NCBI GenBank assembly: GCA_012518845.1 | Contig: JAAYRJ010000229.1 | Span: 1 to 42,837 of the forward strand | Length of the DNA stretch: 42,837 nt | DNA from: Clostridiaceae bacterium | GTDB taxonomy: Bacteria > Bacillota > Clostridia > Saccharofermentanales > DTU023 | Direction of reading: 5' to 3' | Shown here: piece after piece, positions 1,100-39,946 of the stretch | Layout: every line of letters starts with the position of its first letter | Numbering within the stretch: position 1 is the stretch's first letter | Position numbers and translations under genes: made by a program | The notes under the pieces: generated by a model | What the model was told of the DNA's origin: nothing | Database searches by the model: none | The model's input: the letters and a program-made list of their open reading frames with translations, nothing else

Positions 1100-1143
1100 A
1101 GGTTCAATCCACATAGATATTAATTGATAAATGAATAATTAGA

Positions 1144-2709: not shown

Positions 2710-2891
2710 CTTATATTATCTCCAAGACTCAAAAGCTTCATTACGCATCAAGACGCATTCTTGTGATTTGTGCTTTTGAATGTATTATACATCATCAATT
2801 AAACTTTGTCATTGCATGGATTGTGCATATTGAGAATGAAATTAAAATATATTGAGCGTATTGCACAAAGAACTTAGGCTATGCATTAATG

Positions 2892-2933
2892 ATGCGCAAA
2901 TTAACGCAATATTCGTTGATTTTATGCGCAAAA
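2892..2933 (+). promoter_or_regulatory. Candidate operator region: direct repeats ATGCGCAAA spaced 32 bp
   Basis: atgcgcaaa at 2892-2900 and atgcgcaaaa at 2924-2933, in the divergent lacI / ABC intergenic region; related ttgtgcat (2821) and ttgcacaa (2861) nearby. Confidence 0.4.
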
Positions 2934-3023
2934 AAGGATAAATTATGAGTAATCAGGAATATAAAATTTAATAGAATACAAGAATATAGGTTCTATTAGT
3001 CGGGAATGAGGTGATTAAAAAGT

Positions 3024-4538: not shown

Positions 4539-4552
4539 TAGAGGAAATATAA

Positions 4553-5506: not shown

Positions 5507-5581
5507 AGATTACTTATTTTCAAGACGATTTGAAATATCAAAGTTACTTGCTTTGAAAAAAATAGAAATAGGAGAAAGAGA

Positions 5582-6640: not shown

Positions 6641-6690
6641 GACTTAAAGGTGTTAGTTTCTTGATAGAATTAGCAAAGTTCAAATCATAT

Positions 6691-6728
6691 AATAGGCTCC
6701 ACCCTGCTGTGCATATGGAGCTTATTAT
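6691..6728 (+). terminator. Hairpin downstream of SBP gene
   Basis: aataggctcca ... tggagcttatt stem; tail only moderately T-rich. Confidence 0.5.
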
Positions 6729-6807
6729 TCAAAAAGTTCCACAAACGTTTTCGGAAATAATTGATGAATAATAAATACAATAATTAACCTAATCTAGGAG
6801 GATTTTC

Positions 6808-7596: not shown

Positions 7597-7639
7597 TGAT
7601 CAACTAATAAGAAGAATGCTTTATTAAACAAAAATTATC

Positions 7640-8533
7640 GTGAGAAAAATAATGAGTAATATTAAACTGGGTATTGCACCAATTGGTTGGACAAATGATG
7701 ATATGCCGGAATTGGGTGGCGAGAATACTTTTGAACAATGTATAAGTGAAATTGCGTTGGCTGGCTATGAAGGTACTGAGGTGGGTGGAAAATTTCCTAA
7801 AGATCCAATTAAGTTAAAGAAAGCACTTGATTTACGAAAGTTAGAAATTGCTAGTAAATGGTTTGGATCTACGTTATGTGAAGATAGTTTTGAAAAAAAT
7901 AAAGATGCTTTTACAAAGAAACTCGATTATTTAGAGACATTGGGCGCATCAAGAATTAATGTCTGTGAAATGACGGGAAATTTATTTGCACAACAAGTTT
8001 CAATGTTTGGAGAGAATAAGCCAGTTGCTACAAGAGAACAGTGGGAACGCTTTTGTTCCGGACTAAATAAATTAGGCGAAATTGCGAACAAACGAGGCTT
8101 CGAGCTTTGTTATCATCATCACATGGCAACGATTGTTCAGACGGTCGATGAGACAAAACGATTACTAGAAGATACAGATGAAAGATATGTTCATTTGTGC
8201 TTTGATTCTGGTCACTTCCGGTTTTCAGAAGAAGATCCTATTAGAGCAGCTAATTTATTCAAAAGAAGAGTAAAACATATACACTTCAAAGACATACGTG
8301 AAGAAAAAATGACGATCGCAATCAAGGAAGGATATCCTTTTAGAAAAGCAGTAAGAGAAGGATGCTTTACAGTTCCTGGCGATGGAATGATAGATTTTTC
8401 TGAATTAGTTAAAATTTTTATAGAAGATGGCTATAAGGGCTGGATAATAGTTGAAGCAGAACAAGATCCTAATATAGCAAATCCATTTGAATACGCTTTA
8501 AAAGCTAAAAAATATTTAGCCGAGATTTTCTAA
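7640..8533 (+). CDS. IolE-like inosose dehydratase / AP-endonuclease-2 family protein (copy 1)
   Basis: LGIAPIGWTNDDMPELGGENTFEQCISEIALAGYEGTEVG; CYHHHMATIVQT; CFDSGHFRF; GDGMIDFSEL...GWIIVEAEQDP. True start may be the ATG at 7652. Confidence 0.9.
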   Translation: MRKIMSNIKLGIAPIGWTNDDMPELGGENTFEQCISEIALAGYEGTEVGGKFPKDPIKLKKALDLRKLEIASKWFGSTLCEDSFEKNKDAFTKKLDYLETLGASRINVCEMTGNLFAQQVSMFGENKPVATREQWERFCSGLNKLGEIANKRGFELCYHHHMATIVQTVDETKRLLEDTDERYVHLCFDSGHFRFSEEDPIRAANLFKRRVKHIHFKDIREEKMTIAIKEGYPFRKAVREGCFTVPGDGMIDFSELVKIFIEDGYKGWIIVEAEQDPNIANPFEYALKAKKYLAEIF

Positions 8534-8617
8534 AAAATTAATAAGGAATTAGATACACAAGTTTTGAAAGTACCAATAATAGATAAAAATAATAGTTAGA
8601 TTAGGAGTTGTGCACGC

Positions 8618-9652
8618 ATGAAAAAAGTTAAATTAGCAGTGATTGGTGCAGGAAATGTCGGTAGAATTCATGTTGAAAATATTGTTAATAAATTAGATAA
8701 CGCAGAGTTAGTTGCAGTTTCTGATTTTTATCCTGAGAAATATAATGAAATTGCTTCAGAAAAAGGTTGGCCGCTAGCAAGAAAAGAATATCGAGAGATT
8801 TTAAAAGATGAAGAAGTAGATGCAGTGGTTATAGCAACTCCAGCAGCTTTACATGGTGATATGATCATAGAATCAGCAAAAGCAGGAAAAGATGTTTTTT
8901 GCGAAAAACCATTAGACTATGACAAAGAAAAAATAGTAGAGATAATGAAAATTGTAGAAGAAACTGGAATTAAGCTACAAATTGGTTTTAATAGGAGATT
9001 TGATAAGAACTTCATGAAAGCCAAAGAGCTTGTTGAAACTGGTAAGCTTGGTGATATTCATGTTATAAAAATTACTTCGAGGGATCCATCTCCGCCAGGA
9101 ATGGAGTATTTTACAGCTCCAGGTGGTGAGCATTGTTCTATTTATACTGATACAACAATCCATGATTTTGATATGGTTAGATTTTTTAATCCTGCAGAAG
9201 TAGTTGAAGTTTATGCAATGGGATCTAAATTAATCAATAAAGATGTAGAGGAAATTACAAGAGATGATACCTGTGTAATTACCCTAAGATTTGAAGATGA
9301 TTCATTAGCGGTGATTGACAATAGTTGGGAGGCAGTATACGGGTACGATCAAAGGTCAGAAGTTTTTGGGACCAAAGGTGCGGTAACAGTAGAAAATGAT
9401 GTTTTTTCCGAAACAACTCTACACGCCACAGAAGGAATAATTTCAGAAAAACCATTAGTTACGATTAAAGATCGCTATGGTGAGTCATATGCAAATGAAA
9501 TTAAGGCTTTTGTAGATGCGATTCAAAATGATGCCAAAGTTCCAGTAGATGCATATGACGGTTTAATTTCTATTGTTATAGCGGATGCTGCTAGACTTTC
9601 TGCTGAAGAAAATAGACCAATAAAAATTAAAGAACTTATGCCAGAAATGTGA
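8618..9652 (+). CDS. Gfo/Idh/MocA oxidoreductase, inositol dehydrogenase-like
   Basis: GAGNVGRIHVENI Rossmann motif; CEKPLDYD; GFNRRFDKNF; IHDFDMVRFF; WEAVYGYDQRSEVFGTKG. Confidence 0.9.
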   Translation: MKKVKLAVIGAGNVGRIHVENIVNKLDNAELVAVSDFYPEKYNEIASEKGWPLARKEYREILKDEEVDAVVIATPAALHGDMIIESAKAGKDVFCEKPLDYDKEKIVEIMKIVEETGIKLQIGFNRRFDKNFMKAKELVETGKLGDIHVIKITSRDPSPPGMEYFTAPGGEHCSIYTDTTIHDFDMVRFFNPAEVVEVYAMGSKLINKDVEEITRDDTCVITLRFEDDSLAVIDNSWEAVYGYDQRSEVFGTKGAVTVENDVFSETTLHATEGIISEKPLVTIKDRYGESYANEIKAFVDAIQNDAKVPVDAYDGLISIVIADAARLSAEENRPIKIKELMPEM

Positions 9653-9698
9653 AGTAGTTAAAGATTAAAGATAAAGTTATTAGGCTAGGAGAGAAAAA

Positions 9699-10709
9699 AT
9701 GACTAAGTTTAAATTCGGTATTATTGGTACCGGTCGTATTGGAAAATTCCATATTGAAAATTTAATGCGTTACATACCCGACGTAGATGTATATGCAGCT
9801 GCAGATGTAATGATTGATGCTAGCAGTGAATGGCTTGAAGAACAAGGAATTAAGCATATCTATCAAGATTACACTGATTTACTGAAGTTAGAAGATTTGG
9901 ATGCAGTTGTTATATCTACACCTACAGATACACATGCTGATATTGCTATTGCCTCAGCTGAAGCTGGTAAACATGTTTTCTGTGAGAAACCAGTTGATCT
10001 AACTGTTGAACGGGTTAAAGAAGTTATAGAGGTAGTAAAAAAATCTAATGTTAAATTCCAAGTTGGATTTAATAGACGTTTTGATCATAATTTTAGACGT
10101 GTTAGGGAGCATGTGGAAAAAGGAAATATAGGTGATATCCACACAGTTCTTGTAACTTCACGTGATCCAGCTCCACCATCAATAGACTATATCAAAAGTT
10201 CGGGCGGATTATTTCTTGATATGATGATTCATGATTTTGATATGGTTCGTTATCAAAGCGGTGCTGAGGTTGTAGCTGTAACTGCTCATGGTGCCAATTT
10301 GGTTGATCCTGCAATTGAGGAAGCTGGCGATATTGACACAGCAATAGTTACTCTCGAGCTATCCAATGGTGCTTTAGCCATGATTAATAATAGTCGTCAA
10401 GCAGTTTATGGGTATGATCAAAGAGTTGAGGTGTTTGGCTCCAAGGGTCAAGCTGTCGCACATAATGATAAACCAAATGCTGTAGAACTATACACAACAG
10501 AAGACATTAGTACAGATAAAATTCCCTACTTTTTCTTAGACCGCTATACCGGTGCGTTTGTCAATCAATTCACAGATTTTGTTAAGGCTCTTAAGGACGA
10601 GATAGAGGTGCCTGTTAACGATGTTGATGGTCTACGAGCAATTGAAATTGCTTTGGCTTGTAACGAATCACTAAAAACAGGTCAACGTGTTGAATTAAAA
10701 TATGACTGA
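9699..10709 (+). CDS. iolG: Inositol 2-dehydrogenase family protein (IolG copy 1)
   Basis: GTGRIGKFHIENL; FCEKPVDLTVE; GFNRRFDHNFRRV; SGGLFLDMMIHDFDMVRYQSGAEV; highly similar to 29307-30323. Confidence 0.87.
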   Translation: MTKFKFGIIGTGRIGKFHIENLMRYIPDVDVYAAADVMIDASSEWLEEQGIKHIYQDYTDLLKLEDLDAVVISTPTDTHADIAIASAEAGKHVFCEKPVDLTVERVKEVIEVVKKSNVKFQVGFNRRFDHNFRRVREHVEKGNIGDIHTVLVTSRDPAPPSIDYIKSSGGLFLDMMIHDFDMVRYQSGAEVVAVTAHGANLVDPAIEEAGDIDTAIVTLELSNGALAMINNSRQAVYGYDQRVEVFGSKGQAVAHNDKPNAVELYTTEDISTDKIPYFFLDRYTGAFVNQFTDFVKALKDEIEVPVNDVDGLRAIEIALACNESLKTGQRVELKYD

Positions 10710-23308: not shown

Positions 23309-24364
23309 ATGAAAAAAAGAAAAATTTTTGCGATTTTATTGTCACTACTGATGGTAGTAAGTTTAGTTGCTGCTTGTGGTGGCGATGATTCAGCAGATGA
23401 TGCTGCTTCAGATTCAGATGATACTGTTGCGGTAGAAGATGCAGATAGTGGTAGCGAAGATGCTGCAGCGGAAGGTGACATTAGTATCAGTGTTATCTTA
23501 AAGACAACAGCTTCAGAATATTGGGGTTATGTTATGGCTGGTGCTTTATCATACATGGATGATAACCCAGATGTATTTGTCGAAGTGGTTGGTGCTGCTA
23601 ATGAAACAGCTTTTGACGAGCAATTAAGTATGATTGAAACTGCTCTTGGCTCCGATGCATATGACGGATTTGTTATTTCTCCACTTCAAGGCGACATGGT
23701 TGCTACAACTATTGAAGGGTCGGATAAGCCAATTATCGCAATTGACACAGATATTCCATCTGACAAAGTGTTGTCATTTGTTGGAACTGGTAATGAAGAA
23801 GCAGCCAAACTTGGAGGTGAGACAGCAGTTGAAGTTGCTGAAGAGCGTGGCTGGGAAGAACTCAAAGCCATTTGTATTACAGGTGTGCAAGGGGATACAA
23901 CTGCTCAAGCTAGAATTGATGGTTACAAGCAAGGGGTAGAGGCAGCAGGTGGAATTTTCTTAGATGAAGAAATTCAATACGCTGATGCTACAACTGATAA
24001 AGCTGTAAACTCTATGGAAGCAATCATGCAAAAGTATCCAGAAGGTATTGCTATGATTTTGTGTAATAATGATGACATGGCTTTAGGTGCTTCACGTGCA
24101 GCTGCAGGTAACGAGGCTTATAAAGATACTGTGTTTGTTGGGTTTGATGGTGTTCAATCAGCTTGTAATGCTATTTTAGCAGGTGAGCAAACATTGTCAG
24201 TTGCTCAAGATGCTTATGGCATGGGATATTTAGCAGTAGAAGCAGCTCATAAAGCTATCATGGGCGAAGAGCTTGATGATTTCATTGACTCTGGTGCTAG
24301 TATGATCACACCTGAGAATGCTCAAGAACAGCTAGATAAATTAAAAGGTTATTTAGGTGAATAA
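23309..24364 (+). CDS. Sugar ABC transporter substrate-binding lipoprotein (CUT2)
   Basis: Lipobox LVAACGGD; acidic linker; periplasmic binding fold. Confidence 0.93.
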   Translation: MKKRKIFAILLSLLMVVSLVAACGGDDSADDAASDSDDTVAVEDADSGSEDAAAEGDISISVILKTTASEYWGYVMAGALSYMDDNPDVFVEVVGAANETAFDEQLSMIETALGSDAYDGFVISPLQGDMVATTIEGSDKPIIAIDTDIPSDKVLSFVGTGNEEAAKLGGETAVEVAEERGWEELKAICITGVQGDTTAQARIDGYKQGVEAAGGIFLDEEIQYADATTDKAVNSMEAIMQKYPEGIAMILCNNDDMALGASRAAAGNEAYKDTVFVGFDGVQSACNAILAGEQTLSVAQDAYGMGYLAVEAAHKAIMGEELDDFIDSGASMITPENAQEQLDKLKGYLGE

Positions 24365-24423
24365 TTAATCGTTTAAAAAGTGACAAATTCAAGATTTACT
24401 AAATTGTGAACTAAGTCACGATC

Positions 24424-24456
24424 AAAAGTCGAAAGGAATTCCTTTCGACTTTTACC
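24424..24456 (+). terminator. Intercistronic terminator/attenuator between SBP and ATPase genes
   Basis: Perfect 30-bp palindrome aaaagtcgaaaggaattcctttcgactttt. Confidence 0.8.
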
Positions 24457-24481
24457 TAATGGCGGTTGTTAAGGAGAATAT

Positions 24482-25990
24482 ATGAGCGAATACGTAATCG
24501 AACTAAAAAATGTCACCAAGCGTTTTCCAGGGGTTGTTGCTCTAAGAGATATGAAAATACAAGTAAAACCCGGTGAAATTCATGGTTTAATTGGTGAAAA
24601 TGGAGCAGGCAAATCAACTTTAATTAAGGTAATGACAGGTGTTCATCAGGCTGATGAAGGTGAGATCTATATTGATGGTCAAAAAGTGTCTTTTGCAAAT
24701 CCTAAAGAGTCCTCAGAAGCGGGGGTGGCTTGTGTTTATCAAGAGCTTAACATCGATCGATTGATGAATGTTACTGACAATGTCTTTATGAACAAGTGGA
24801 TTAAGGGGAGTTCCGGTTTACTAGATTATGCTGAGATGGACCGAAGGACTAAAGAAGTTTTGACTGAAATTGGTCAAGATCTCGATCCAAATGAAATAAC
24901 TGGAAAACTCGGAATGGGCCAACAGCAAATGATAGAAATTGCGAAGGCTATTTTAATTGATTCAAAAGTAATCATTATGGATGAACCATCCTCATCCTTA
25001 GGTGAAAAAGAAGTTGAACAACTTTTTAAAGTATGTAGACGGTTGAAGGAGCAAGGCATTGCTATAATCTATGTGTCACATAAATTGGAAGAATTATTTG
25101 AATTATGTGACTGCGTGACCGTTATGCGTGATGGTGAGTATATTTGGACTAAGCCTATTGAAGAAGTAACAAATGATAGTCTGGTGTCTGCAATGGTTGG
25201 TCGTAGCTTAGACAATCAATTTCCAAAAGAATTTGGAGAACGTGGACGTTGTGCTCTGAAGATAGAAAATTTGAGTCAAGTTGGCAGGGTAGATGATGTT
25301 AGCTTTGAAGCTTACGAAGGAGAAATCCTTGGTTTTTCCGGACTAGTTGGCGCAGGTCGAACAGAAACTATGCTTGCTCTCTTTGGATCGGATCCAATTG
25401 ATGGCGGAAAAGTTTATGTCTATGACGAAGAAGTCAATTTTAAAAGTCCACGTGAAGCTATAGAAAAAGGATTGGCACTATTAACAGAAGATCGTAAAGG
25501 GCAAGGATTAGTTTTGGGTCAATCTGTAAAGAGTAATTTAATTTTATCCAGTCTAAGAGAATTTACAGAGGGTGGTCTCTTTCTTCAAGAAGACAAGATT
25601 GAGAAAACGTGTCACGAAAATGTAGACGCTCTTAAAATTAAAACACCAACAATCGAAGAAACAACTGCGAAATTATCTGGTGGTAATCAGCAAAAAGTTG
25701 TTATTGGTAAATGGCTTAATACAGATGCGGATATTTATATTTTTGATGAACCAACAAGAGGAATTGACGTTGGTGCAAAAGTTGAAGTCTATAATATAAT
25801 GAATAATCTAGTGAAACAAGGTAAATGTGTAATTATGGTCTCTTCTGAAATGCCTGAGATTTTAGGTATGAGTGATCGTGTAGTTGTTATGAGAGAAGGA
25901 AGAATTACAGCAACTATCGAAAGAGACAGTAAACATTTTAATCAAGAAAGCATTATGCAAGCGGCATGGGGAGGCTCGTTAGATGACTAA
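24482..25990 (+). CDS. Sugar ABC transporter ATP-binding protein (CUT2)
   Basis: GENGAGKST, LTEDRKGQGL, LSGGNQQKVVIGKWL, DEPTRGIDVGAKVEVY. Confidence 0.95.
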   Translation: MSEYVIELKNVTKRFPGVVALRDMKIQVKPGEIHGLIGENGAGKSTLIKVMTGVHQADEGEIYIDGQKVSFANPKESSEAGVACVYQELNIDRLMNVTDNVFMNKWIKGSSGLLDYAEMDRRTKEVLTEIGQDLDPNEITGKLGMGQQQMIEIAKAILIDSKVIIMDEPSSSLGEKEVEQLFKVCRRLKEQGIAIIYVSHKLEELFELCDCVTVMRDGEYIWTKPIEEVTNDSLVSAMVGRSLDNQFPKEFGERGRCALKIENLSQVGRVDDVSFEAYEGEILGFSGLVGAGRTETMLALFGSDPIDGGKVYVYDEEVNFKSPREAIEKGLALLTEDRKGQGLVLGQSVKSNLILSSLREFTEGGLFLQEDKIEKTCHENVDALKIKTPTIEETTAKLSGGNQQKVVIGKWLNTDADIYIFDEPTRGIDVGAKVEVYNIMNNLVKQGKCVIMVSSEMPEILGMSDRVVVMREGRITATIERDSKHFNQESIMQAAWGGSLDD

Positions 25991-26981
25991 GGAAAAATCA
26001 AGAGGAAATATTTTATCGAAATTTGGTACAGTTATAGCTTTGATACTATTGTGTGTTATTCTCGCTATTTTGACACCTAATTTCTTGAAAGTATCAAACT
26101 TAATGAATGTTTTGAAGCAAACAGCAGTAAATGCGATTATAGCAACAGGGATGTTAGTTTGCTTAATTACTGGTGGTATCGATCTTTCGGTTGGTGCAAA
26201 TGCGGTCACTGTCACATGTCTTATTGGCTTACTACATACAAGAGGTGTTAGCAATGTTTTTGTATTAGTAGCTGCAGCCTTAGCCTGTGGAACTTTTATT
26301 GGATACATAAATGGTTCATTGTTAACTAAATTACGCTTACCACATCCGTTTGTTTCTACTCTTGGTATGAAAAACATATTAGCCGGTGTAGCCTTGCTAT
26401 TAGTTAATTCCAAGATGGTTTCTGGTTTTGGTCCTGGAATAAGCTGGTTAGGATCTGCATCATTGTTTACAAGTGGAAGCTTTCCAGGTGTTCCTGCAAG
26501 TTTTTTGCTAGTTATAATCGTTTTTGTTTTAATGCAAATTTTCTTAACCAAAACTCCTTTAGGCCGTTCTATTTATAGTGTTGGTGGTAATAGAGAAGCT
26601 GCTCGTCTTTCAGGAATTAACTCTGATAATGTTTTAACTTTTGCTTATACTTTGTCAGGGTTCATGTGTGCAATTGCTGGTATTATTTTGATTGGTCGTG
26701 GTGGTATTGCAAATGGTGCTAATGCTATTCAACCTTATGACACAGACGCAATTGCTGCTTGTATCATTGGTGGTGCTTCATTTGCAGGTGGTAAAGGTGA
26801 TATGAAGGGTACTATGATTGGTTCTTTGATTATTGCTGTTTTAAGAAATGGATTGACACTCCTTGCTGCATCTGGTGCGATCCAAAACGTTGTAATTGGT
26901 TCTGTAATTATTCTTGCAGTATATATTGATGTTGTTAGAGAAAGACTTGAAGCGGAACGTTTACGCCTAGCTTCGAAATAA
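25983..26981 (+). CDS. Sugar ABC transporter permease (CUT2)
   Basis: LITGGIDLSVGANAVT, SVGGNREAARLSGIN motifs; overlaps the ATPase gene by 8 nt. Confidence 0.94.
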   Translation: MTKEKSRGNILSKFGTVIALILLCVILAILTPNFLKVSNLMNVLKQTAVNAIIATGMLVCLITGGIDLSVGANAVTVTCLIGLLHTRGVSNVFVLVAAALACGTFIGYINGSLLTKLRLPHPFVSTLGMKNILAGVALLLVNSKMVSGFGPGISWLGSASLFTSGSFPGVPASFLLVIIVFVLMQIFLTKTPLGRSIYSVGGNREAARLSGINSDNVLTFAYTLSGFMCAIAGIILIGRGGIANGANAIQPYDTDAIAACIIGGASFAGGKGDMKGTMIGSLIIAVLRNGLTLLAASGAIQNVVIGSVIILAVYIDVVRERLEAERLRLASK

Positions 26982-27194: not shown

Positions 27195-28259
27195 ATGTTC
27201 TTGCGAGAAAAGGAAAACAAAAAACGTCGTCAGATTACGATCAAAGATGTAGCCGAGAAGGCAGGAGTTTCATACTCTACGGTTTCAAGAGCTCTGAACG
27301 ACTATCCTGGTACAAATGAACAAACCAAAGCGATGGTGAAAAAAATTGCACAAGAGATGGGCTATACAGCAAATGAACTTGCTCGTAGTCTTGTGACCAA
27401 AAGATCCCAAACTGTTGGTTTTATTTTGCCAGATTTATCAAATCCTTTCTTTACAGATATTTTATCCGCAATCAACAAAGAAGTAGAAAATAATGGTTAT
27501 GACCTTTTAATTTGTGAAACACATTGGCAGGCAGAGAAAGAAAAATCAGAATTAGAAATGCTGATGAAAAAACAAGTGGATGGTGTTCTCTTGTATCCAG
27601 CTGAGGTTATAGGAGAAGATAGATTGTTAAAAAATAACAAGCCTACGGTCATTTTTGATGAATCACCTAATGCAATAGATGAAGTTACAGACTACAGTTT
27701 TATAGCAGTTAATAATATTGAGTCAGGATATCTTGCGGTAAGTCATGCACTGGAATATGGTTATCGCAAGATTGTGTATCTAGGTGGTCCAAGTATTTCT
27801 AATTCAAACAATAAGAGATTAGCAGGTATAGGAATTCGCTTAGCAGAAGAGAAGCTTAGTTTAGATCCGTGCGATCATCCCTATCTTGAGGGTGATTATA
27901 CTTTAGAGAGTGGTTATGATCGGACTAGATCATTGTTGTCTAGTTTTAGGGAAGACATTGACTGCTTTATCTGTGCCAATGATCTCATTGCTCTAGGCTG
28001 TATGAGCGCAGTTGAAGATTCTGGTTTTAAAATAGGAGGTGAAATTGGCGTAATAGGATTTGATGATATCGATTATGCAGGCTTGCCACAGATTCAGTTA
28101 ACTACAGTAAGAATCCCTAGGTATGAAATGGGACAACTAGGTGTTATAAATCTAATGAAGATGTTAGATGTTAATAGTTCTGAGTCTGAGATTAACCTTG
28201 TCAAAACAACAATGCTTTATCCAAATATTATTATTAGAAATACTACGAAAAGAAGATAG
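27195..28259 (+). CDS. LacI-family transcriptional regulator
   Basis: ITIKDVAEKAGVSYSTVSRALNDYPGTNEQTKAMVKKIA HTH; sugar-binding domain. Confidence 0.94.
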   Translation: MFLREKENKKRRQITIKDVAEKAGVSYSTVSRALNDYPGTNEQTKAMVKKIAQEMGYTANELARSLVTKRSQTVGFILPDLSNPFFTDILSAINKEVENNGYDLLICETHWQAEKEKSELEMLMKKQVDGVLLYPAEVIGEDRLLKNNKPTVIFDESPNAIDEVTDYSFIAVNNIESGYLAVSHALEYGYRKIVYLGGPSISNSNNKRLAGIGIRLAEEKLSLDPCDHPYLEGDYTLESGYDRTRSLLSSFREDIDCFICANDLIALGCMSAVEDSGFKIGGEIGVIGFDDIDYAGLPQIQLTTVRIPRYEMGQLGVINLMKMLDVNSSESEINLVKTTMLYPNIIIRNTTKRR

Positions 28260-29306: not shown

Positions 29307-30323
29307 ATGAAAAAATACAAAATAGGGGTCATTGGCACAGGCAGGATAGGAAAACTCCACATAGAAAATTTAATGCGGTATATTCCTGAAGCAGAAGTTT
29401 ATGCGGCTGCTGATGTTATGATTGAGCATAGTAAAGAGTGGTTAGAAGAGAATAATATAGAACATGTTTTTTCTGACTACAAAGATCTGTTAGCCTTAGA
29501 AGAAATTGATGCAGTTGTCATTTCAACTCCAACAGATACTCATGCAGAAATTAGTATTGCTGCGGCTGAAGCTGGCAAACATGTATTTTGTGAAAAACCA
29601 GTTGATTTGACTGTTGAAAGAGTAAAAGATGTTATTGCAGCGGTAAAAAAAGCAGATGTTGTTTTTCAAGTTGGCTTTAACAGAAGGTTTGATCATAATT
29701 TCAGGAGAGTTAGAGAACATGTTGTTGATGGCAACATAGGGGATGTCCACATGGTGCTTGTCACCTCACGTGATCCTGCACCTCCACCAGTTTCATATAT
29801 TGAGAGTTCTGGTGGTTTATTTCTTGATATGATGATTCACGACTTTGATATGGTTCGCTATCAAAGCGGTGCAGAAGTAGTAGCAGTCACAGCTCATGGT
29901 GCTAATTTGGTTGATCCAGAAATTGGCGAAGCAGGTGATATTGACACTGCAATTGTTACATTGGAATTATCAAATGGCGCTTTAGCTATGATAAATAATA
30001 GTAGACAAGCTGTTTATGGCTATGATCAAAGGGTTGAGGTTTTTGGTTCTAAGGGTCAAGCAACTGCCTATAATGATCAACCAAATAATGTGGAACTCTA
30101 TACCGAAGAAGATATTAGCACGGACAAAATTCCTTATTTCTTCTTGGATCGTTATACTAACGCATTTATTAACCAGTTTGAAGATTTTATCAAGGCGCTA
30201 AAAGGGGAAATTGAAGTGCCAGTTAACGATGTAGACGGACTTCGAGCTATTGAAATAGCACTTGCTTGTAATGAATCTCTTAAAACAGGGGAGCGTGTTG
30301 AACTTGTCTATGATGAGTTATGA
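29307..30323 (+). CDS. iolG: Inositol 2-dehydrogenase family protein (IolG copy 2)
   Basis: GTGRIGKLHIENLMRYIPEAEVYAAADVMIEHS; near-identical over long stretches to 9699-10709. Confidence 0.88.
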   Translation: MKKYKIGVIGTGRIGKLHIENLMRYIPEAEVYAAADVMIEHSKEWLEENNIEHVFSDYKDLLALEEIDAVVISTPTDTHAEISIAAAEAGKHVFCEKPVDLTVERVKDVIAAVKKADVVFQVGFNRRFDHNFRRVREHVVDGNIGDVHMVLVTSRDPAPPPVSYIESSGGLFLDMMIHDFDMVRYQSGAEVVAVTAHGANLVDPEIGEAGDIDTAIVTLELSNGALAMINNSRQAVYGYDQRVEVFGSKGQATAYNDQPNNVELYTEEDISTDKIPYFFLDRYTNAFINQFEDFIKALKGEIEVPVNDVDGLRAIEIALACNESLKTGERVELVYDEL

Positions 30324-30343: not shown

Positions 30344-31246
30344 ATGTATAAATTTAACTCAGAAGAAGTGCATTTAGGAATTGCGCCAATTGGCTGGACG
30401 AATGATGATTTGCCTGACCTAGGTTCAGAAAACACTTTTGAACAATGTGTCTCTGAAATGGCTTTGGCTGGCTTTACAGGTTCGGAAGTAGGTAATAAAT
30501 ATCCTAAAGATCCTGAAGTTTTAAAGCCGATGCTTGATGTTCGCGGAATAAGAATTGCAAATCAATGGTTTTCTTCTTTGCTTATGTCAGAGCCTTATGA
30601 AGTAACAATCGAAAACTTCAAAAAGCAATTGGATTTTCTAGAAGCAATGGGAGCTAAAGTGATCGGTGCTTCAGAACAAGGTAATTCCATTCAAGGTAAG
30701 GATATTCCTGTTTTAAATGATCAAAAACCAGTCTTGACAGATGAAGAATGGGATCTATTAGCCAAAGGCTGTAATGAAATGGGGAAAATTGCTTATGATA
30801 GAGGTATGACCTTTACCTATCATCATCATATGGGTACTTGTGTACAAACAATTGAAGAAACAGAGCGTTTCCTCGAAATGACTGATCCAGAATTGGTCTT
30901 TTTGCTGTATGATACAGGCCATTTCTATTTCTCAGGTGAAGACCCAGTTGAAGCTTTGGAAAAGTTTTTACCACGTGTTCGTCACGTTCACTTAAAAGAT
31001 GTTAGAGCTGACGTCTTAAAAGAAGTAAAAGCACAAAAAATGAGCTTTTTAGATGCAGTTAGAGCTGGTGCCTTTACAGTTCCAGGAGATGGTCATATTG
31101 ATTTTGATCCAGTCTTCAAATTGTTGTCAGAAAATAATTATAAGGGATGGATGATAGTTGAAGCAGAGCAAGATCCTGCTAAAGCTAATCCATTTGTCTA
31201 TGCTAAGAAAGCAAGACAATTTATTAGAGAAAAAACAGGTCTATAG
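30344..31246 (+). CDS. iolE: IolE-like myo-inosose-2 dehydratase (copy 2)
   Basis: LGIAPIGWTNDDLPDLGSENTFEQCVSEMALAGFTGSEVG; FTYHHHMGTCVQT; LYDTGHFYFSGEDP; FTVPGDGHIDFDPVF. Confidence 0.9.
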   Translation: MYKFNSEEVHLGIAPIGWTNDDLPDLGSENTFEQCVSEMALAGFTGSEVGNKYPKDPEVLKPMLDVRGIRIANQWFSSLLMSEPYEVTIENFKKQLDFLEAMGAKVIGASEQGNSIQGKDIPVLNDQKPVLTDEEWDLLAKGCNEMGKIAYDRGMTFTYHHHMGTCVQTIEETERFLEMTDPELVFLLYDTGHFYFSGEDPVEALEKFLPRVRHVHLKDVRADVLKEVKAQKMSFLDAVRAGAFTVPGDGHIDFDPVFKLLSENNYKGWMIVEAEQDPAKANPFVYAKKARQFIREKTGL

Positions 31247-31676: not shown

Positions 31677-32942
31677 ATGAAAAAACATATAAACTTAGGG
31701 ATAGACAATCGATTTCAAACAATTGCAATAGAGGAAGACAATTTATTAGACGTTTTGCATCAAAATGATATCGAATATGATCTAACAGGAATGGATGCAG
31801 TTGCGGATTCTCTGAAAAAACCAATTGGAACTAAGACTCTGACAGAGATTATTCAGCCTGGTGAATCAGTTGTAATTGTTACATCGGATCTAACAAGACC
31901 CCTGCCTTCACATCAAGTTTTGCCACCAATTCTAAATGAATTAGAAGAAATTGGTGTTAAAGATGAGGAGATTACGATTGTTTTTGCTCTAGGGTCCCAT
32001 CGTAAGCAAACAGAAGCTGAAATGCGTGAGTTAGTAGGGGATGATATTTTCGAACGCTACAAAACAGTGGATGGTGACTTGGACGACGTAGTCCATTTAG
32101 GCGAAACAACTGGTGGTACACCTATTGATATTGACAGAACTGTGGCAGAAGCAGATCGCAGAATTTGTTTGGGCAATATTGAATATCATTATTTTGCTGG
32201 CTATAGTGGCGGGGCAAAGGCGATAATGCCAGGAGTTTCGACAAGAGCAGCTATTCAGGCAAATCACAGCAATATGACACATCCAAAAGCTACAGCAGGA
32301 AATGCTGTGGATAATCCTGTTCGGAACGATTTAGAGGAAGCAATTCAACATTGTCCAATTGATTTTATTGTAAATGTTGTTTTAAATGAAAATAAAGAAA
32401 TTATTCATTCGGTCGCTGGGCACTTTATTGAAGCTCATCGTGAGGGCTGTAAATTTTTAGATAAACTTTATCTAAAGCCAATCGATCAGAGAGCGGATAT
32501 AGTTATTGCCTCTCAAGGTGGTGCTCCTAAAGATCTTAATCTATATCAAACCCAGAAGGCTCTCGATAACACGAAGTTTGCAGTTGCAGATGGAGGTGTT
32601 GTTATCTTGGTAGGTTCCTGTAAAGAGGGAATGGGAGAAGAAGTTTTTGCTGAATGGATGTCAGAAGCAAAAGATCCTAAAGAATTAATTAAACGTATTG
32701 AATTAGAATTTAAATTGGGTGGCCATAAAGCTGCTGCGATTGCACTTGTTATGGAGAGGGCAGATATTTATTTGGTCTCAGATATGGACGATGATTTTGT
32801 GCGAAGTATTTTTATGACACCTTTTGATAATGTTGAGGACGCTTATCAAGCAGCAAGAGAAAAATTAGGTGATGATGCCAAAGTTCTCGTCATGCCTTAT
32901 GGGGGTTCAACTTTACCAAGAGTAAAGGGTGAAATAGAGTAG
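31677..32942 (+). CDS. LarA-family nickel-dependent 2-hydroxyacid racemase (candidate malate racemase)
   Basis: SDLTRPLPSHQ, ALGSHRKQT, NIEYHYFAGYSGGAKAIMPGVSTRAAIQANHSNM retain the LarA His/Lys signature. Confidence 0.9.
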   Translation: MKKHINLGIDNRFQTIAIEEDNLLDVLHQNDIEYDLTGMDAVADSLKKPIGTKTLTEIIQPGESVVIVTSDLTRPLPSHQVLPPILNELEEIGVKDEEITIVFALGSHRKQTEAEMRELVGDDIFERYKTVDGDLDDVVHLGETTGGTPIDIDRTVAEADRRICLGNIEYHYFAGYSGGAKAIMPGVSTRAAIQANHSNMTHPKATAGNAVDNPVRNDLEEAIQHCPIDFIVNVVLNENKEIIHSVAGHFIEAHREGCKFLDKLYLKPIDQRADIVIASQGGAPKDLNLYQTQKALDNTKFAVADGGVVILVGSCKEGMGEEVFAEWMSEAKDPKELIKRIELEFKLGGHKAAAIALVMERADIYLVSDMDDDFVRSIFMTPFDNVEDAYQAAREKLGDDAKVLVMPYGGSTLPRVKGEIE

Positions 32943-33005: not shown

Positions 33006-34037
33006 ATGACAAAAGTAAAAGTTGGTGTATCCGGTTACGGAGTCATTGGTCAAAGATTAGCTGATGGCGTAGCAAAACAGGAAGATATGGAATTGGTAGG
33101 GGTTGCAGATATAGCTCCCACCTTATCAGTCAGAGCATTACACGAAAAAGGTATGCCTTATGACCTATATTTAGTCGAAGGAGCAGATGAAGGAAAGTTT
33201 AAAGAATTAGGTATTCCAGTGTCAGGCACATTCGATGAATTAGTTCAAAAAGTGGATGTCATGCTTGACTCTGCACCAGGCGGAATTGGTCTAGAGAACA
33301 AGAAAATTTATGAAAAATACAATACTAAAGCTATATTCCAAGGTGGAGAAGCCAATGAAATAGCAGATGTATTCTTCCACGGTTATGCTAATTTTGAAGA
33401 AGGCGTTGGTGAAGATTATTTGAAATTAACATCATGTAATACAACGGGTTTAATACGTGCTATCGATTGCTTAGATAGAAAATATGATGTAGAACGTACA
33501 GCAATTACAATTGTACGTAGAGTAGCAGACCCTGGTGACTATCATAGGGGTTTAACAAACGCATTGCAGATGGAAAAATCACCAAGTCATCAAGCGGTAG
33601 ATTTAATGACAATAATGCCACATATCGAAGCAACTGGAATCTTGGTACATACTCCAGTTACTCATGGTCATATTATTTCAGTGGTAGTTAATGCCAAGAA
33701 AAAAATAACAAAAGACATGGCACTAGAAGCATTTAACGAGCATGACAGAATTCGTGTTGTGTCAATAGATGATGGTTTCCTAGGCAATGCTTCTCTCTTC
33801 CGTTATGCAAGAGATTTAGGCAATTCACGTGGTGATATGTACGAAATAGCAGTTTGGGAAGATAGTATAGTTGAATACGGTGATGGAATTATGTTTGCAA
33901 TTAATATTCCACAAGAAGCTGTAACTATTCCAGAATCAATAGATGCAATTCGTGCGGCTACCAAGATGCAAACAACGCGTGAAGACGGCACAGATGCTAC
34001 TAACAAATATTTGGAAATAGCAAAATGGAAAAAATAA
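33006..34037 (+). CDS. Archaeal-type (class II) glyceraldehyde-3-phosphate dehydrogenase homologue, likely repurposed
   Basis: VKVGVSGYGVIGQRLADGVAKQEDMELVGV; APGGIG; IFQGGE; LTSCNTTGLIRAID (catalytic Cys); ITIVRRVADPGD; matches remembered archaeal GAPDH pattern. Confidence 0.9.
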   Translation: MTKVKVGVSGYGVIGQRLADGVAKQEDMELVGVADIAPTLSVRALHEKGMPYDLYLVEGADEGKFKELGIPVSGTFDELVQKVDVMLDSAPGGIGLENKKIYEKYNTKAIFQGGEANEIADVFFHGYANFEEGVGEDYLKLTSCNTTGLIRAIDCLDRKYDVERTAITIVRRVADPGDYHRGLTNALQMEKSPSHQAVDLMTIMPHIEATGILVHTPVTHGHIISVVVNAKKKITKDMALEAFNEHDRIRVVSIDDGFLGNASLFRYARDLGNSRGDMYEIAVWEDSIVEYGDGIMFAINIPQEAVTIPESIDAIRAATKMQTTREDGTDATNKYLEIAKWKK

Positions 34038-35278
34038 AAATCAATAATTTTAAAGATTTTGATTATCAAGATGCAACAGTTTTGTTGCGTCTTGATATCA
34101 ATTCACCTTTAGATCCTGAAACTAAAAGAATCACAGATGACACAAGGATTATTAAAAGCTTACCTACTTTAAATCATTTGTTAGATCAGGGAGCAAAAGT
34201 TGCTATTCTAGCTCATCAAGGTGATACACTTGATTATCAAAATTTAATAAGTCTCGAAGAACATGCAGAAATTTTGAACAAAAAAGCTAATGGAAAAGTC
34301 AGTTATATCGATGATTGTGCAGGACCGGCGGCTCAAGAAACTGTTAAGAATTTGCAGCCTGGTGAAGCAGTGATATTAGGTAATGTCCGCTATTTAGCTG
34401 AGGAAATATCAACTTTTGAAACAGTAGTGAATCTAACATCAGAAGAAATGACAGAAACTTGGTTAGTTAGAAATCTAGCACCGCTGTTTGATTATTACGT
34501 TAACGATGCCTTCTCAGCAGCTCATCGAAATTGTCCATCTATGGTAGCTTTTGAAGAGCTTTTGCCTTCAGCAGCAGGCGAACTATTCTTCAAAGAATAC
34601 TCCGTTTTAAGTGAAATTTTAGAAAATCCTGTTAAACCTTTGGCATTTATTTTAGGTGGGGCTAAAATCTCAGATGCTTTTGGCATGCTTGATCAAGTGT
34701 TAAGTAGTGGTACTGCAGATTATATTTTAACATCTGGAGTAACAGGTGTTGTTTTCCTTTTAGCTAGTGGGGTCAAAGTTGGTACAAAATATGAGTCTTG
34801 GCTTAAAGAACGTGATTTATTGCAGTTTGTTGAACCAGCAAAATCATATTTAGAAAAATATGGTGACCGTATCTTAGTACCTGTTGATTTAGCCTATGAG
34901 AAAGATAATCAACGACAAGAAATTGATGTTGCTGATCTGCCATTAGATGAGGGAATGTTCCTTGATATAGGTCAGAAAACGGTTGACAAATATGGTGAGA
35001 TTATAGCTTCTGCTGGTAGCATGTTTATCAATGGACCTCCTGGTGTGTACGAAGATAAGCTGTTCGAAGAAGGAACAAAGGGTATTTGGACCCATATTGC
35101 TAAATCAGAAGGTTATTCTGTTGTTGGTGGTGGTGATTCTGTTCAAGCAGCCGGAAAATTTATAGATTTAGATAATATCGGATATGTCTGTACGGCAGGC
35201 GGAGCTATGGTTCGTTTCATGACAGGCAAAAAATTACCTTTAATTGAAGCCATGGAAAAAGCTTCACAAAAATTTTAA
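34025..35278 (+). CDS. Archaeal-type phosphoglycerate kinase homologue with altered substrate patch
   Basis: VLLRLDINSPLDPETKRITDDTRI; ILAHQGDTLDYQNLISLEEHAEIL; NVRYLAEE; YVNDAFSAAHRNCPSMVAFE; LGGAKISDAF; FINGPPGVYE; VVGGGDSVQAA; TAGGAMVRFMTGKKLP. Confidence 0.92.
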   Translation: MEKIKINNFKDFDYQDATVLLRLDINSPLDPETKRITDDTRIIKSLPTLNHLLDQGAKVAILAHQGDTLDYQNLISLEEHAEILNKKANGKVSYIDDCAGPAAQETVKNLQPGEAVILGNVRYLAEEISTFETVVNLTSEEMTETWLVRNLAPLFDYYVNDAFSAAHRNCPSMVAFEELLPSAAGELFFKEYSVLSEILENPVKPLAFILGGAKISDAFGMLDQVLSSGTADYILTSGVTGVVFLLASGVKVGTKYESWLKERDLLQFVEPAKSYLEKYGDRILVPVDLAYEKDNQRQEIDVADLPLDEGMFLDIGQKTVDKYGEIIASAGSMFINGPPGVYEDKLFEEGTKGIWTHIAKSEGYSVVGGGDSVQAAGKFIDLDNIGYVCTAGGAMVRFMTGKKLPLIEAMEKASQKF

Positions 35279-35357: not shown

Positions 35358-36161
35358 ATGTACTTAGAAAAGAAAGATATTAAACCTGGTTACAATGAGT
35401 TTTTAAACTTAGATGTTAATAAGGGCGAAAATAGTTTAATGGATGTTGGACTTCTAATTTTGGAGCCAGGTCAATCTTATCGCTTTTCCGAAAAAGACAA
35501 AGAGGTATCCTGGGTCTTAATGAAGGGAAAAGGTAAAGCTGTAGTCGATGGTAAAGAATATGACATAGATCGTCCAGATCCATTTCGTTATGTCGGCTAT
35601 TGTCTTTTAATGTCTAAAGGATCTGAGTGCGAAATTACGGCTGAAGAATACAGCGAATTCTACGTTCAAATGACCTATAATGATAAAACTTTTGAACCAC
35701 ATATGTATTCTGCTGAGGATACACATACTTGGCAACGTGGTACTGGTGGAGTCTTGGATGGAACGATGAGACGTGATGTTCGTACTTATTATGATTATGA
35801 ATCCCGACCTGATTCCAATATGGTTCTAGGCGAGGTTGTTAGTCCAGGTGGCAATTGGTCATCATATCCACCACACCATCATCCACAACCAGAAGTTTAT
35901 TTCTATTTCTTTGAAGATGAGCGTGGTTTTGGAGCTGGTTGGGCAGAAAATGAGGTACATGAACTTGGAAATCATGGTTGCCTTGTTGTGGCTGATGACA
36001 CTAATCATCAACAAGTTGTAGCTCCTGGCTATCCTTGCTGTTATATCTGGGGTATTCGTCATTTAGATGGTAATCCTTGGGAAAAAACAAGAATTGATGA
36101 CGAAACACATGAATGGCTATTGGATGATCCAGAATACTGGCAGCCAGCAGCAGAAGAATAA
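35358..36161 (+). CDS. iolB: 5-deoxy-glucuronate isomerase
   Basis: GNWSSYPPHHHPQPEVYFYFF...GFGAGWAENEVHELGNHGCLVV...HQQVVAPGYPCCYIWGIRHL is the IolB signature. Confidence 0.95.
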   Translation: MYLEKKDIKPGYNEFLNLDVNKGENSLMDVGLLILEPGQSYRFSEKDKEVSWVLMKGKGKAVVDGKEYDIDRPDPFRYVGYCLLMSKGSECEITAEEYSEFYVQMTYNDKTFEPHMYSAEDTHTWQRGTGGVLDGTMRRDVRTYYDYESRPDSNMVLGEVVSPGGNWSSYPPHHHPQPEVYFYFFEDERGFGAGWAENEVHELGNHGCLVVADDTNHQQVVAPGYPCCYIWGIRHLDGNPWEKTRIDDETHEWLLDDPEYWQPAAEE

Positions 36162-36216: not shown

Positions 36217-38076
36217 ATGACAAAAAGAATTCGTTTAACTATGGCTCAAGCTATTGTCAAATTCCTAGACAATCAATATATTGAGCAAGATGGCATTGAA
36301 AATAAATTTGTGAACGGTATGTTTGCTATTTTTGGGCATGGTTGTGTAACAGGAATTGGTGAGGCTCTTGAAAACATGGATCATAATCTTACCTTTTATC
36401 AAGGTAAGAATGAACAAGGAATGGCTTTAGCCGCAATGGCATATTCTAAGCAAAAAGATCGTAAAGAAATCATTCCATGTGTATCTTCTATTGGTCCTGG
36501 TGCTACTAATATGGTAACTGCAGCGGCGTGCGCAACAGCAAATAGAATTCCATTATTAGTTCTACCTGGTGATACTTTTGCAACACGTCAACCCGATCCT
36601 GTTTTACAACAAGCTGAGATCTTTTCTAGCGTTGGTACAACAGTTAATGACAGTTTTAAAGCAGTTTGTCGCTATTTTGATCGTTGTGATCGACCTGAAC
36701 AAGTTATGTCAGCTCTCATTAATGCCATGCGTGTTCTCACCGATCCAGCAGATACAGGTGCCGTAGGTATTGCTATGCCGCAAGACGTTGAGGCAGAAGC
36801 GTATGACTACCCAGAGTATTTCTTTAAGAAGCGTGTTTGGCATCTCGATCGTCGACCAATTACACAAAATCAAATTGATCGTACAATGGAAATTCTTAAA
36901 GAATCGAAACGTCCACTTGCAATTGTTGGTGGCGGAGTAAGATATTCAGCTGCTGAAAAAGAGTTGATAGAATTTGCTGAAAAAGCAAATATACCTTTTG
37001 GAGAAACACAAGCTGGTAAAGGAATCATTCCCTGGGATCATAAACTAAATCTAGGAGGAATTGGTGTTACTGGTACTTTAGCAGCTAACAGAATTGCTAA
37101 AGAAGCAGATCTCGTGATTGGTATAGGAACCCGTTTTACAGACTTTACAACTTCATCGAAATGGTTATTCCAAAATCCAGATGTAAAATTCATTTCCTTA
37201 AATATTTGTGCTTTTGATGCCTTTAAAATGGATGCAGAGGGTATAATTTGTGATGCCAAAGAAGGGCTCAAAGGTTTAACCGAAAATCTTGGTGATTATA
37301 AATCTGAATATACGGTAGAAATAGAAGAAAATAAAAACAACTGGAATAAGATTGTTGATGAAGCGTATACAGAAGAGCTAGAAGAAGGTTTTTCACAGAA
37401 AAAAGCAGTTGGTATTATCAACAAATTTGCTAAAGAACAAGATGTTGTAGTCTGCGCAGCTGGTAGTTTACCAGGGGACTTACAACGTTATTGGAGACCT
37501 GGCGATAGCCGTTCATATCATGTTGAATACGGATTTAGTAATATGGGATATGACTTAAATGGTGCGCTTGGTGTAAAGATGGCTCAACCTGAATCTGAAG
37601 TCTTTGCGATGGTCGGTGATGGTGGCTACTTAATGTTAAACTCCGAAGTCTACACAATGGTTCAAGATTATCAAAAAGTCAATATTATGCTCTTTGATAA
37701 TAGTGGCTGGGGTTGTATTGAAGATTTGCAAAATAGCCATGGTGGTAATAGTTATGGTACCCAGTTTACATCACGTGCTGCTGATGGTACTTTAACAGCG
37801 CCTCCTTTACCAATTGATTTTGCGATGAATGCTAAATCTTTAGGTTGTGCTGCATATACCTGTCGCAATGCGGAAGAACTAAAAGAAGCCCTTGAAGACT
37901 CTAAACAATATACAGATCGTCCTGTATTATTCGATATTAAAGTTGCTCCTGGCTCTATGAGTCCTGGTTATGAGTCATGGTGGCGTGTTGGTGTTGCGGA
38001 AGTTTCGGAAAATCCAGATGTCGAAAAATCTTATGAAGCTTTGGTTAAAGAAATTGCCAAAACGAGAGATTATTAA
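36217..38076 (+). CDS. iolD: 3D-(3,5/4)-trihydroxycyclohexane-1,2-dione hydrolase (ThDP-dependent)
   Basis: RLTMAQAIVKFLDNQYIEQDG..., FGHGCVTGIGEAL, YQGKNEQGMALAAMAYSKQ, SSIGPGATNMVTAAA; ThDP motif GDGGYLMLNSEVYTMVQ. Confidence 0.96.
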   Translation: MTKRIRLTMAQAIVKFLDNQYIEQDGIENKFVNGMFAIFGHGCVTGIGEALENMDHNLTFYQGKNEQGMALAAMAYSKQKDRKEIIPCVSSIGPGATNMVTAAACATANRIPLLVLPGDTFATRQPDPVLQQAEIFSSVGTTVNDSFKAVCRYFDRCDRPEQVMSALINAMRVLTDPADTGAVGIAMPQDVEAEAYDYPEYFFKKRVWHLDRRPITQNQIDRTMEILKESKRPLAIVGGGVRYSAAEKELIEFAEKANIPFGETQAGKGIIPWDHKLNLGGIGVTGTLAANRIAKEADLVIGIGTRFTDFTTSSKWLFQNPDVKFISLNICAFDAFKMDAEGIICDAKEGLKGLTENLGDYKSEYTVEIEENKNNWNKIVDEAYTEELEEGFSQKKAVGIINKFAKEQDVVVCAAGSLPGDLQRYWRPGDSRSYHVEYGFSNMGYDLNGALGVKMAQPESEVFAMVGDGGYLMLNSEVYTMVQDYQKVNIMLFDNSGWGCIEDLQNSHGGNSYGTQFTSRAADGTLTAPPLPIDFAMNAKSLGCAAYTCRNAEELKEALEDSKQYTDRPVLFDIKVAPGSMSPGYESWWRVGVAEVSENPDVEKSYEALVKEIAKTRDY

Positions 38077-38118: not shown

Positions 38119-38961
38119 ATGGAGATAATTATGGATGAAAAATTGAAAACAGATTTGCAAAGATTTGCTACACAAATAAGAATTGAGACAATCAAAGAAA
38201 TTGGTACTCTTGGAGTTGGACATATAGGTGGATCCTTATCAATTGTAGAAGCGTTAGCTGTTTTATACGGTGAAGTAATGCACATTGATCCAGAAAACCC
38301 AAAGATGGAAGAGCGTGATTGGCTGATTTGTTCTAAAGGTCATGCAGGTCCAGCAGTTTATGCTGCATTGGCCCTAAAAGGTTATTTCCCTATGGAAATG
38401 CTAGAGACGCTAAATCAACCAGGCACAAATTTACCTAGTCACTGCGATATGAACCGTACACCTGGAGTAGATATGACAACAGGTTCTTTAGGTCAAGGCG
38501 CAAGTTCTGCAGTCGGTATCGCTATAGGTAACCGTCTTAAAGGCTTAGACAATTATACATACTTAATTGTTGGTGATGGTGAAAGTCAAGAAGGACAAGT
38601 CTGGGAAGTAGCATTATATGCTGGGCAGAAAAAGCTTAATAATTTGATTGCTTTCATGGATTACAATGATATGCAAATAGACGGAAATGTTAGCGACATC
38701 AATACTTTAGGTGATGCTGGTAAAAAGTTTGAAGAGTTTGGTTGGTATTCACAAACAATTGACGGTCATGATGTTGAAGCTATTTATGAAGCGATTCAAA
38801 ATGCTAAGGCACAATCTGACAAGCCTTCAATGATTGTTCTCAATACAATTAAGGGTAAAGGTGCTTCATTCTGTGAAGGTCTAGTATCCTCTCATAGTAT
38901 GAATGTTACTGAAGACCAAGTAAAAGAAGCAGTTGAAGCGCTTGAAGCAGAGTTAGAATAG
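38119..38961 (+). CDS. Transketolase, N-terminal (ThDP-binding) subunit
   Basis: GHIGGSLSIVEALAVLYGEVM; KGHAGPAVYAALAL; TGSLGQGASSAVGIAIG; VGDGESQEGQVWEVA...YNDMQIDG. Confidence 0.95.
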   Translation: MEIIMDEKLKTDLQRFATQIRIETIKEIGTLGVGHIGGSLSIVEALAVLYGEVMHIDPENPKMEERDWLICSKGHAGPAVYAALALKGYFPMEMLETLNQPGTNLPSHCDMNRTPGVDMTTGSLGQGASSAVGIAIGNRLKGLDNYTYLIVGDGESQEGQVWEVALYAGQKKLNNLIAFMDYNDMQIDGNVSDINTLGDAGKKFEEFGWYSQTIDGHDVEAIYEAIQNAKAQSDKPSMIVLNTIKGKGASFCEGLVSSHSMNVTEDQVKEAVEALEAELE

Positions 38962-38974: not shown

Positions 38975-39946
38975 ATGACAGTTAAATTAGCTGATTATAG
39001 AATAGATGATACAACAGAAATGCGGGCAGCATACTGTGAAACATTGATGGATCTTGCAGCAGAAGATTCACGAATCGTTGAGCTTGATGCTGACTTGCGT
39101 GGCGCTGCAGGTATGAATGCCTTTGCAGAAAAATTTCCTGATAGAGCGTTTAACGTTGGTGTACAGGAAGCAAATATGATGGGTGTTGCGGCTGGTTTAT
39201 CAGCAACTGGATATATTCCTTTTGCAAATACTTTTGCTCCTTTTGCAACACGTCGTGCCTGTGATCAAATATTTATGTCCTGTGCTTATGCCAAACAAAA
39301 TGTCAAAGTAGTAGGGCTTGATCCAGGGGTCACAGCAGCTTTAAATGGTGGTACACACATGCCATTTGAAGACATTGCGATAATGCGTGCTTTCCCAGAG
39401 GTAACAGTAGTTGAGCCAGCAGATTCTATGGCAACTAGAGATGTTATAAAACTAGCTAAAGAAAATGATGGTGTATGGTATATTCGTTTAGGTAGAAAAA
39501 CCTTCCCTGCAGTATATCAAGAAAGTCCAAAGATCGAATACGGTAAAGTAATTACAGTTCGTGAAGGTACAGATGTAACCTTGATTGCTTCTGGAATTAT
39601 GGTTGCTGAAGCGCTTAAAGCTGCAGATGAACTAGAGAAAGAAAACATTTCAGCAAGAGTTCTCGATTCACTGTTCATTAAACCATTGGACGAAGAAGCT
39701 ATCTCTAAAGCAATTGACGAAACTGGTGCCCTTGTAACCTGTGAAAACCATAATGTAATTAATGGTTTAGGAAGTGCAGTTGCAGATTTCCTAGCAACAG
39801 AAAAATATGCTCCTTTAGAAAAAGTTGGTGTACAAGATGAGTTTGGTGAAGTTGGTCCAGTTGATTACCTAAAAGAGAGATTTGACTTAACCGCAGATGT
39901 TATCGTTCAAAAAGCTAAAAAAGCTATTGCTAGAAAAAATAGCTAA
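38975..39946 (+). CDS. Transketolase, C-terminal subunit
   Basis: EMRAAYCETLMDLAAEDSRIVELDADL; NVGVQEANMMGVAAGLSATG; FAPFATRRACDQI; GGTHMPFEDIAIMRAFP; C-terminal transketolase fold. Confidence 0.95.
   Translation: MTVKLADYRIDDTTEMRAAYCETLMDLAAEDSRIVELDADLRGAAGMNAFAEKFPDRAFNVGVQEANMMGVAAGLSATGYIPFANTFAPFATRRACDQIFMSCAYAKQNVKVVGLDPGVTAALNGGTHMPFEDIAIMRAFPEVTVVEPADSMATRDVIKLAKENDGVWYIRLGRKTFPAVYQESPKIEYGKVITVREGTDVTLIASGIMVAEALKAADELEKENISARVLDSLFIKPLDEEAISKAIDETGALVTCENHNVINGLGSAVADFLATEKYAPLEKVGVQDEFGEVGPVDYLKERFDLTADVIVQKAKKAIARKNS

Follow-up and report, generated by a model that had tools for sequence, protein, structure and literature searches.

The classical iol pathway takes inositol through upper steps catalyzed by IolG, IolE, IolD and IolB, and then relies on the IolC kinase, the IolJ aldolase and IolA. 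IolC and IolJ are likewise the basis of the inositol pathway of Anaerostipes (PMC8355322). Sulfoquinovose breakdown provides an example of a transketolase working on a six-carbon ketose that is not phosphorylated: SqwGH (sulfo-TK) transfers a C2 unit that ends up in xylulose-5-phosphate (PMC11659671). In PGK, three arginines (R65, R122 and R170) form bonds to the 3-phosphate of 3-PG and H62 to the bridging oxygen, as summarized in a review of PGK structures (PMC7729029). Finally, the biological role of the LarAH6 group of malate racemases was left open when this group was characterized (PMC7583248).

Here we analyzed a window (the whole stretch of DNA under study) of 42,837 nucleotides from a Clostridiaceae genome, in which homologues of GAPDH and PGK, a LarA-family protein and a split transketolase are encoded in an inositol operon. 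We consider it likely that this operon specifies an inositol pathway that is based on transketolase and mirrors the lower part of glycolysis, with a carboxylate replacing the phosphate, where we infer the substrates, the direction and the function of the Asp that marks the PGK homologue. The features concerned are as follows:

23309-26981, + strand: sugar-type ABC importer (binding protein 23309-24364, ATPase 24482-25990, permease 25983-26981), by position and sequence probably for inositol uptake
27195-28259, + strand: LacI-family regulator, by sequence the probable regulator of the operon
29307-30323, + strand: iolG, inositol 2-dehydrogenase (TIGR04380, 452.7 bits, cut-off 355)
30344-31246, + strand: iolE, myo-inosose-2 dehydratase (TIGR04379, 420 bits, cut-off 290)
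31677-32942, + strand: larA, nickel-pincer malate racemase of the LarAH6/Mar2 family (NF052593, 574 bits, cut-off 500)
33006-34037, + strand: gap2, type II (archaeal-type) GAPDH homologue (NF003251, 406 bits, cut-off 185)
34025-35278, + strand: pgk, PGK homologue with Asp at the R65 position, a putative D-malyl-phosphate:ADP phosphotransferase
35358-36161, + strand: IolB-like (KduI/IolB family) 5-deoxyglucuronate isomerase, divergent (PF04962, 138 bits)
36217-38076, + strand: iolD, trihydroxycyclohexanedione hydrolase (TIGR04377, 913 bits, cut-off 715)
38119-38961, + strand: transketolase N-terminal half, TPP-binding (PF00456, 195 bits)
38975-39946, + strand: transketolase C-terminal half, pyrimidine-binding and C domains (PF02779 and PF02780)

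The operon genes (iolG, iolE, larA, gap2, pgk, iolB-like, iolD and the transketolase halves, of which both N and C are present) all lie on the + strand and are closely spaced. The upper steps are those of the classical pathway, with IolB represented by a protein that scored 84 bits on TIGR04378, below the cut-off of 205; a related cluster (L035) encodes a bona fide IolB with 343 bits. In contrast to the classical pathway, no IolC over cut-off was found in the window genome, which is a draft of 87.7% completeness so that this absence is not final, and the proposed transketolase cut would yield a C4 unit and a gain of ATP instead of using ATP. Relatives of the importer were found inside other iol clusters, for example L052, and relatives of the LacI-family regulator lie near gap2/pgk in L033, L036, L037, L050 and L056. 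Approximately 20 kb upstream of the operon, positions 131-10709 of the window form a second inositol-type region, which holds a ribokinase-like kinase, an ABC importer, an iolE-like gene and two iolG-like dehydrogenases. The gene at 131-1033 was considered as a hidden IolC, but it encodes a ribokinase-like protein instead. An Rfam scan of the window gave no matches, and a promoter/terminator scan gave little above shuffled sequences.

The ORF of the PGK homologue has an ATG start on the + strand, encodes 417 amino acids and overlaps the gene for the type II GAPDH homologue by 13 nt. A match of 365 bits to the Pfam profile PF00162 places the protein in the PGK superfamily, and its segment after beta-2 reads ILAHQGDTLDYQNLISLEEH / ILAHQGDTLDYQ. 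The first-pass annotation had claimed that the Arg of the 'GRP' motif is lost here while the other patch arginines and the nucleotide-site motifs are kept, and the alignment bore out both points: the R65 position (common PGK numbering) is D67 of the homologue (HQGDT; codon 34223-34225), while H62, R38, R122, R170 and the GGAK, NGP and GGGD motifs are retained. Also kept are D23, N25 and R38 of the common numbering, as D24, N26 and R41. The basic-patch residues of EC 2.7.2.3 (R65, R122, R170 and H62) are thus not all present, R65 alone being replaced, by Asp. The reading of R65 as a contact to the distal phosphate of 3-PG was likewise correct (PMC7729029). The AF2 model (pLDDT 87.5) is that of a normal PGK, with the archaeal-type PGK of P. 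horikoshii (2cun) as its best match and low confidence just after D67 (residues 68-70) and in a clade-specific insertion (130-133). With archaeal-type PGK the homologue has in common the fold (TM 0.88-0.90), the nucleotide-site motifs, R38, H62, R122 and R170; it differs in that its clade and the sister clade have Asp, Ser or Gly for Arg or Lys at R65, in the clade-specific insertion, which follows NxRY, and in its location in an inositol operon of hosts with another PGK. The structure of the yeast R65Q mutant (1qpg) was also among the structure matches. Yeast PGK mutants in R65 are still active on 3-PG. By itself, the loss of R65 would be a weak argument and no proof of a changed substrate; it is the context that carries the case. 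Loss of K219 (human numbering) was rejected as a special feature of the homologue, since archaeal PGKs also lack K219.

When 392 genomes of the same class were searched with the whole PGK protein, the matches fell into sharply separated groups, of 58-71% identity in 12 genomes and of 44-45% in four, with canonical PGKs at approximately 40% and below. Screening named genomes extended the set to Clostridium magnum, C. peptidivorans, Flexilinea flocculi, Sphaerochaeta and further Spirochaetota, as well as to MAGs assigned to Negativicutes, Dehalococcoidales, Thermoleophilia and Deltaproteobacteria. The 58-71% group is referred to as clade A (28 sequences, including the window protein) and the 44-45% group as clade B (5 sequences). 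One of the two patterns used to search the named genomes contained HQGD, a source of ascertainment bias, but the unbiased whole-protein search of the 392 genomes gave the same split. At the R65 position the alignment has Asp in all 28 sequences of clade A and Ser or Gly in all five of clade B, whereas of the 78 canonical PGKs, 44 from archaea and 34 from bacteria, 76 have Arg and two have Lys. With R65 absent in 33/33 members of the A+B clade versus Arg/Lys in 78/78 canonical PGKs, chance or misalignment at this position is ruled out. D67 is the only position of the whole protein at which clade A and the canonical PGKs differ completely; other strong clade-A shifts outside an insertion are P to T beside D67 and E to G before NxR. 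K136, R149 and R397 are common in the clade and were considered as compensating residues. However, K136, which lies in the clade-specific insertion and is Lys in 26 of the 28 clade-A sequences, is replaced by Asn in the window protein, and the positions of R149 and R397 are often basic or variable among the canonical PGKs as well. The alignment check revealed no invariant compensating Arg. In a maximum-likelihood tree, clades A and B form one branch (support 100/100) inside the archaeal-type PGKs, so that R65 was probably lost once, at the stem of A+B. The Ser or Gly of clade B, rather than Asp, at the R65 position counts against the pathway.

The type II GAPDH homologue is called an ordinary type II GAPDH by NCBIfam of June 2026, and it retains the catalytic Cys (CNTT), the RR pair and the aligned His of this family. 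It shares the catalytic Cys, RRxADP, one PSHH histidine and the nucleotide fold with archaeal type II GAPDHs (1cf2, 2czc, 1b7g and 2yyy). In its clade, however, several differences from these enzymes are fixed across 31 members, namely H194 to Gln, L217 to His, M218 to Gly and H221 to Ile (M. fervidus numbering), as well as GP to GL. Since these fixed differences lie near the active site, glyceraldehyde-3-phosphate is a doubtful substrate. We propose that the homologue acts as a phosphorylating malate-semialdehyde dehydrogenase. Type II GAPDH was found in 16 of the 392 genomes, that is in all 15 with a clade A/B PGK and in one other. Genome G273 has a GAPDH-II clade gene at L130:6753-7829 without a matching PGK.

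The two genes could also encode an ordinary glycolytic pair of archaeal origin that acts on glyceraldehyde-3-phosphate and 3-PG and handles triose phosphates in the inositol operon. This would agree with the clear family membership of both proteins, with their greatest similarity being to archaeal enzymes, and with the activity of the yeast R65 mutants. However, all 15 sampled genomes with a clade A/B PGK also carry GAPDH-I, and each holds one PGK match beyond the clade A/B copies, which means that the gap2-pgk pair is not needed for glycolysis. Moreover, R65 is gone in every clade member and kept (as Arg or Lys) in every canonical PGK, the GAPDH homologues show active-site changes specific to their clade, and without IolC the classical triose-phosphate branch is missing. 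We therefore regard an ordinary glycolytic role as improbable.

The nearest solved relative of the LarA protein is the malate racemase Mar2 (6d6z), and the lactate racemase model gave only 360 bits on it, under the cut-off of 460. Like Mar2, it belongs to the LarAH6 family over the cut-off and retains both the Gln preceding the catalytic Lys and a further Lys that has been proposed as the ligand of the second carboxylate. Among the Mar2 residues that a structural study tied to malate specificity (Y172/K173, Q293 and K351), the equivalents of Y, Q and K351 are kept; the window protein differs from Mar2 by a Phe at K173 and by the placement of its gene in an inositol operon. LarAH6 was over cut-off in 6 of the 7 cluster larA genes tested.

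The gap2-pgk pair recurs with transketolase (tkt) halves, larA and iolB/D/E/G in varied combinations in many Clostridia and in Flexilinea flocculi (Chloroflexota), while in Spirochaetota this context recurs in partial form. Twelve gap2-pgk loci contain a malic enzyme gene, as do two separate iol loci in genomes of this kind; four of these assignments were confirmed by Pfam, and the others come from BLAST. In addition, a gene of the tartrate/D-malate-dehydrogenase family, over the family cut-off, directly follows pgk in a Spirochaetales MAG (L059). Malic enzyme and the L059 dehydrogenase both point to malate, and the latter to its D form.

The sharing of an inositol operon by a transketolase, a GAPDH, an R65-less PGK and a malate racemase would be explained by one scheme that leads from 5-keto-2-deoxy-D-gluconate (DKG) to malate. 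DKG equals xylulose-5-phosphate with CH2-COO- in place of CH2-OPO3, and its ketose head is D-threo, as in xylulose-5-phosphate and fructose-6-phosphate, which is the form accepted by transketolase. In the proposed scheme DKG would be formed by IolG, IolE, IolD and the IolB-like enzyme, and the split transketolase would shift its two-carbon ketol to an acceptor, for example glyceraldehyde-3-phosphate to give xylulose-5-phosphate. The remainder would be (R)-malate semialdehyde, an analogue of D-glyceraldehyde-3-phosphate, which the GAPDH homologue would convert with NAD(P) and phosphate to malyl phosphate. The PGK homologue would then use malyl phosphate and ADP to produce D-malate and ATP, where the replacement of R65 would remove one of the three phosphate-clamping arginines and leave R122 and R170 for the carboxylate. 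Lastly, LarAH6 would turn D-malate into L-malate for malic enzyme or a branch of the TCA cycle. Compared with sulfo-TK, the substrate would carry a carboxylate instead of a sulfonate, and the product would be oxidized via the GAPDH and PGK homologues with substrate-level phosphorylation. The first-pass annotation had arrived at malyl phosphate and malate from the loss of R65; these substrates now draw their support from the LarAH6 gene, malic enzyme, the D-malate/tartrate-dehydrogenase-family gene, the split transketolase and the lack of IolC, more than from the substitution that was its starting point.

Alternatively, the GAPDH/PGK pair might convert malonate semialdehyde (3-oxopropionate), the known C3 product of classical inositol breakdown (PMC8355322), via malonyl phosphate to malonate and ATP. 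Malonate semialdehyde has no 2-hydroxyl, which would make a malate racemase pointless, and a transketolase cut of DKG yields a four-carbon, not a three-carbon aldehyde. As IolC is also absent, and malic enzyme and malate racemase co-occur, a role in malonate formation seems highly improbable.

The distribution of the classical genes was compared across the same 392 genomes. IolD is present in 29 of these overall versus 11 of the 12 clade-A genomes (hypergeometric P ~5e-13, a value that ignores shared ancestry). IolC over cut-off was found in none of the 11 genomes with IolD and a clade-A PGK versus 12 of the 18 other IolD genomes (Fisher P 0.0004), among which a 13th IolC is truncated; IolA was over cut-off in 1 of the 11. 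The operon gene set therefore appears to stand in for the kinase branch of the classical pathway. Absence of IolC is no exclusive mark of the transketolase route, however, since five IolD genomes without a clade-A PGK are also without a full-strength IolC. Three IolD operons without full-strength IolC contain a transaldolase-like gene (L131:8861-9940, L132:8073-9149 and L133:8993-10069) together with an aldehyde dehydrogenase gene, which is of the SauS-like CoA-acylating type in L131 and MMSDH in L132. This suggests that in the L131-L133 operons DKG is cut by a transaldolase to yield malonate semialdehyde, a variant that would relate to the transketolase route as sulfo-TAL does to sulfo-TK.

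Several gap2-pgk-larA clusters, such as L039, L041 and L054, lack iol and tkt genes in their surroundings, and G163 is a clade-A genome without any IolD, so that in some hosts the module must receive malate semialdehyde from elsewhere or work on other substrates. A gene of the Asp/Glu-racemase family adjoins gap2/pgk at L039:8944-9603, L041:2-664 and L061:11472-12146, in clusters without tkt and iol. The L044 and L040 clusters combine gap2, pgk, tkt, larA and malic enzyme without iol genes; they carry zinc-ADH-like and transporter genes, with an SDR in L044, which hints at another sugar-acid feeder. Conceivably, the module serves another four-carbon 2-hydroxyaldehyde, for example tartrate semialdehyde from 5-ketogluconate, and was only borrowed in inositol operons. 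Transketolase does cleave 5-ketogluconate to tartrate semialdehyde, several clusters without iol genes have sugar-acid-type neighbors (SDR, zinc-ADH), and the L059 dehydrogenase is named tartrate dehydrogenase. On the other hand, IolD is found in nearly every clade-A genome and malic enzyme marks malate. Furthermore, LarAH62, a characterized malate racemase, shows a more than tenfold preference for malate relative to tartrate (PMC11770544). Taken together, a borrowed module for tartrate-type substrates is unlikely.

No description of an inositol route by transketolase, GAPDH and PGK was found in open-licence full texts, papers on LarA enzymes and on inositol metabolism in the gut included, and earlier publication elsewhere is possible. 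The DKG-to-malate scheme would represent a new branch in the catabolism of inositol, assembled from known enzyme families whose substrates have shifted. It is likely that this is a widespread inositol route of anaerobes, in which a split transketolase cuts DKG, GAPDH and PGK retuned to a carboxylate produce D-malate and ATP, and a nickel-dependent racemase follows. If so, it would add a third mode of DKG splitting to the kinase/aldolase mode and the possible transaldolase variant, and it would show GAPDH and PGK at work beyond triose phosphates, with a carboxylate standing for the phosphate. It would also give the LarAH6 malate racemases a role and correct the annotation of the type II GAPDH/PGK gene set in many anaerobes. 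For inositol, an abundant compound of plants and the gut, this route would provide an energy-yielding anaerobic fate.
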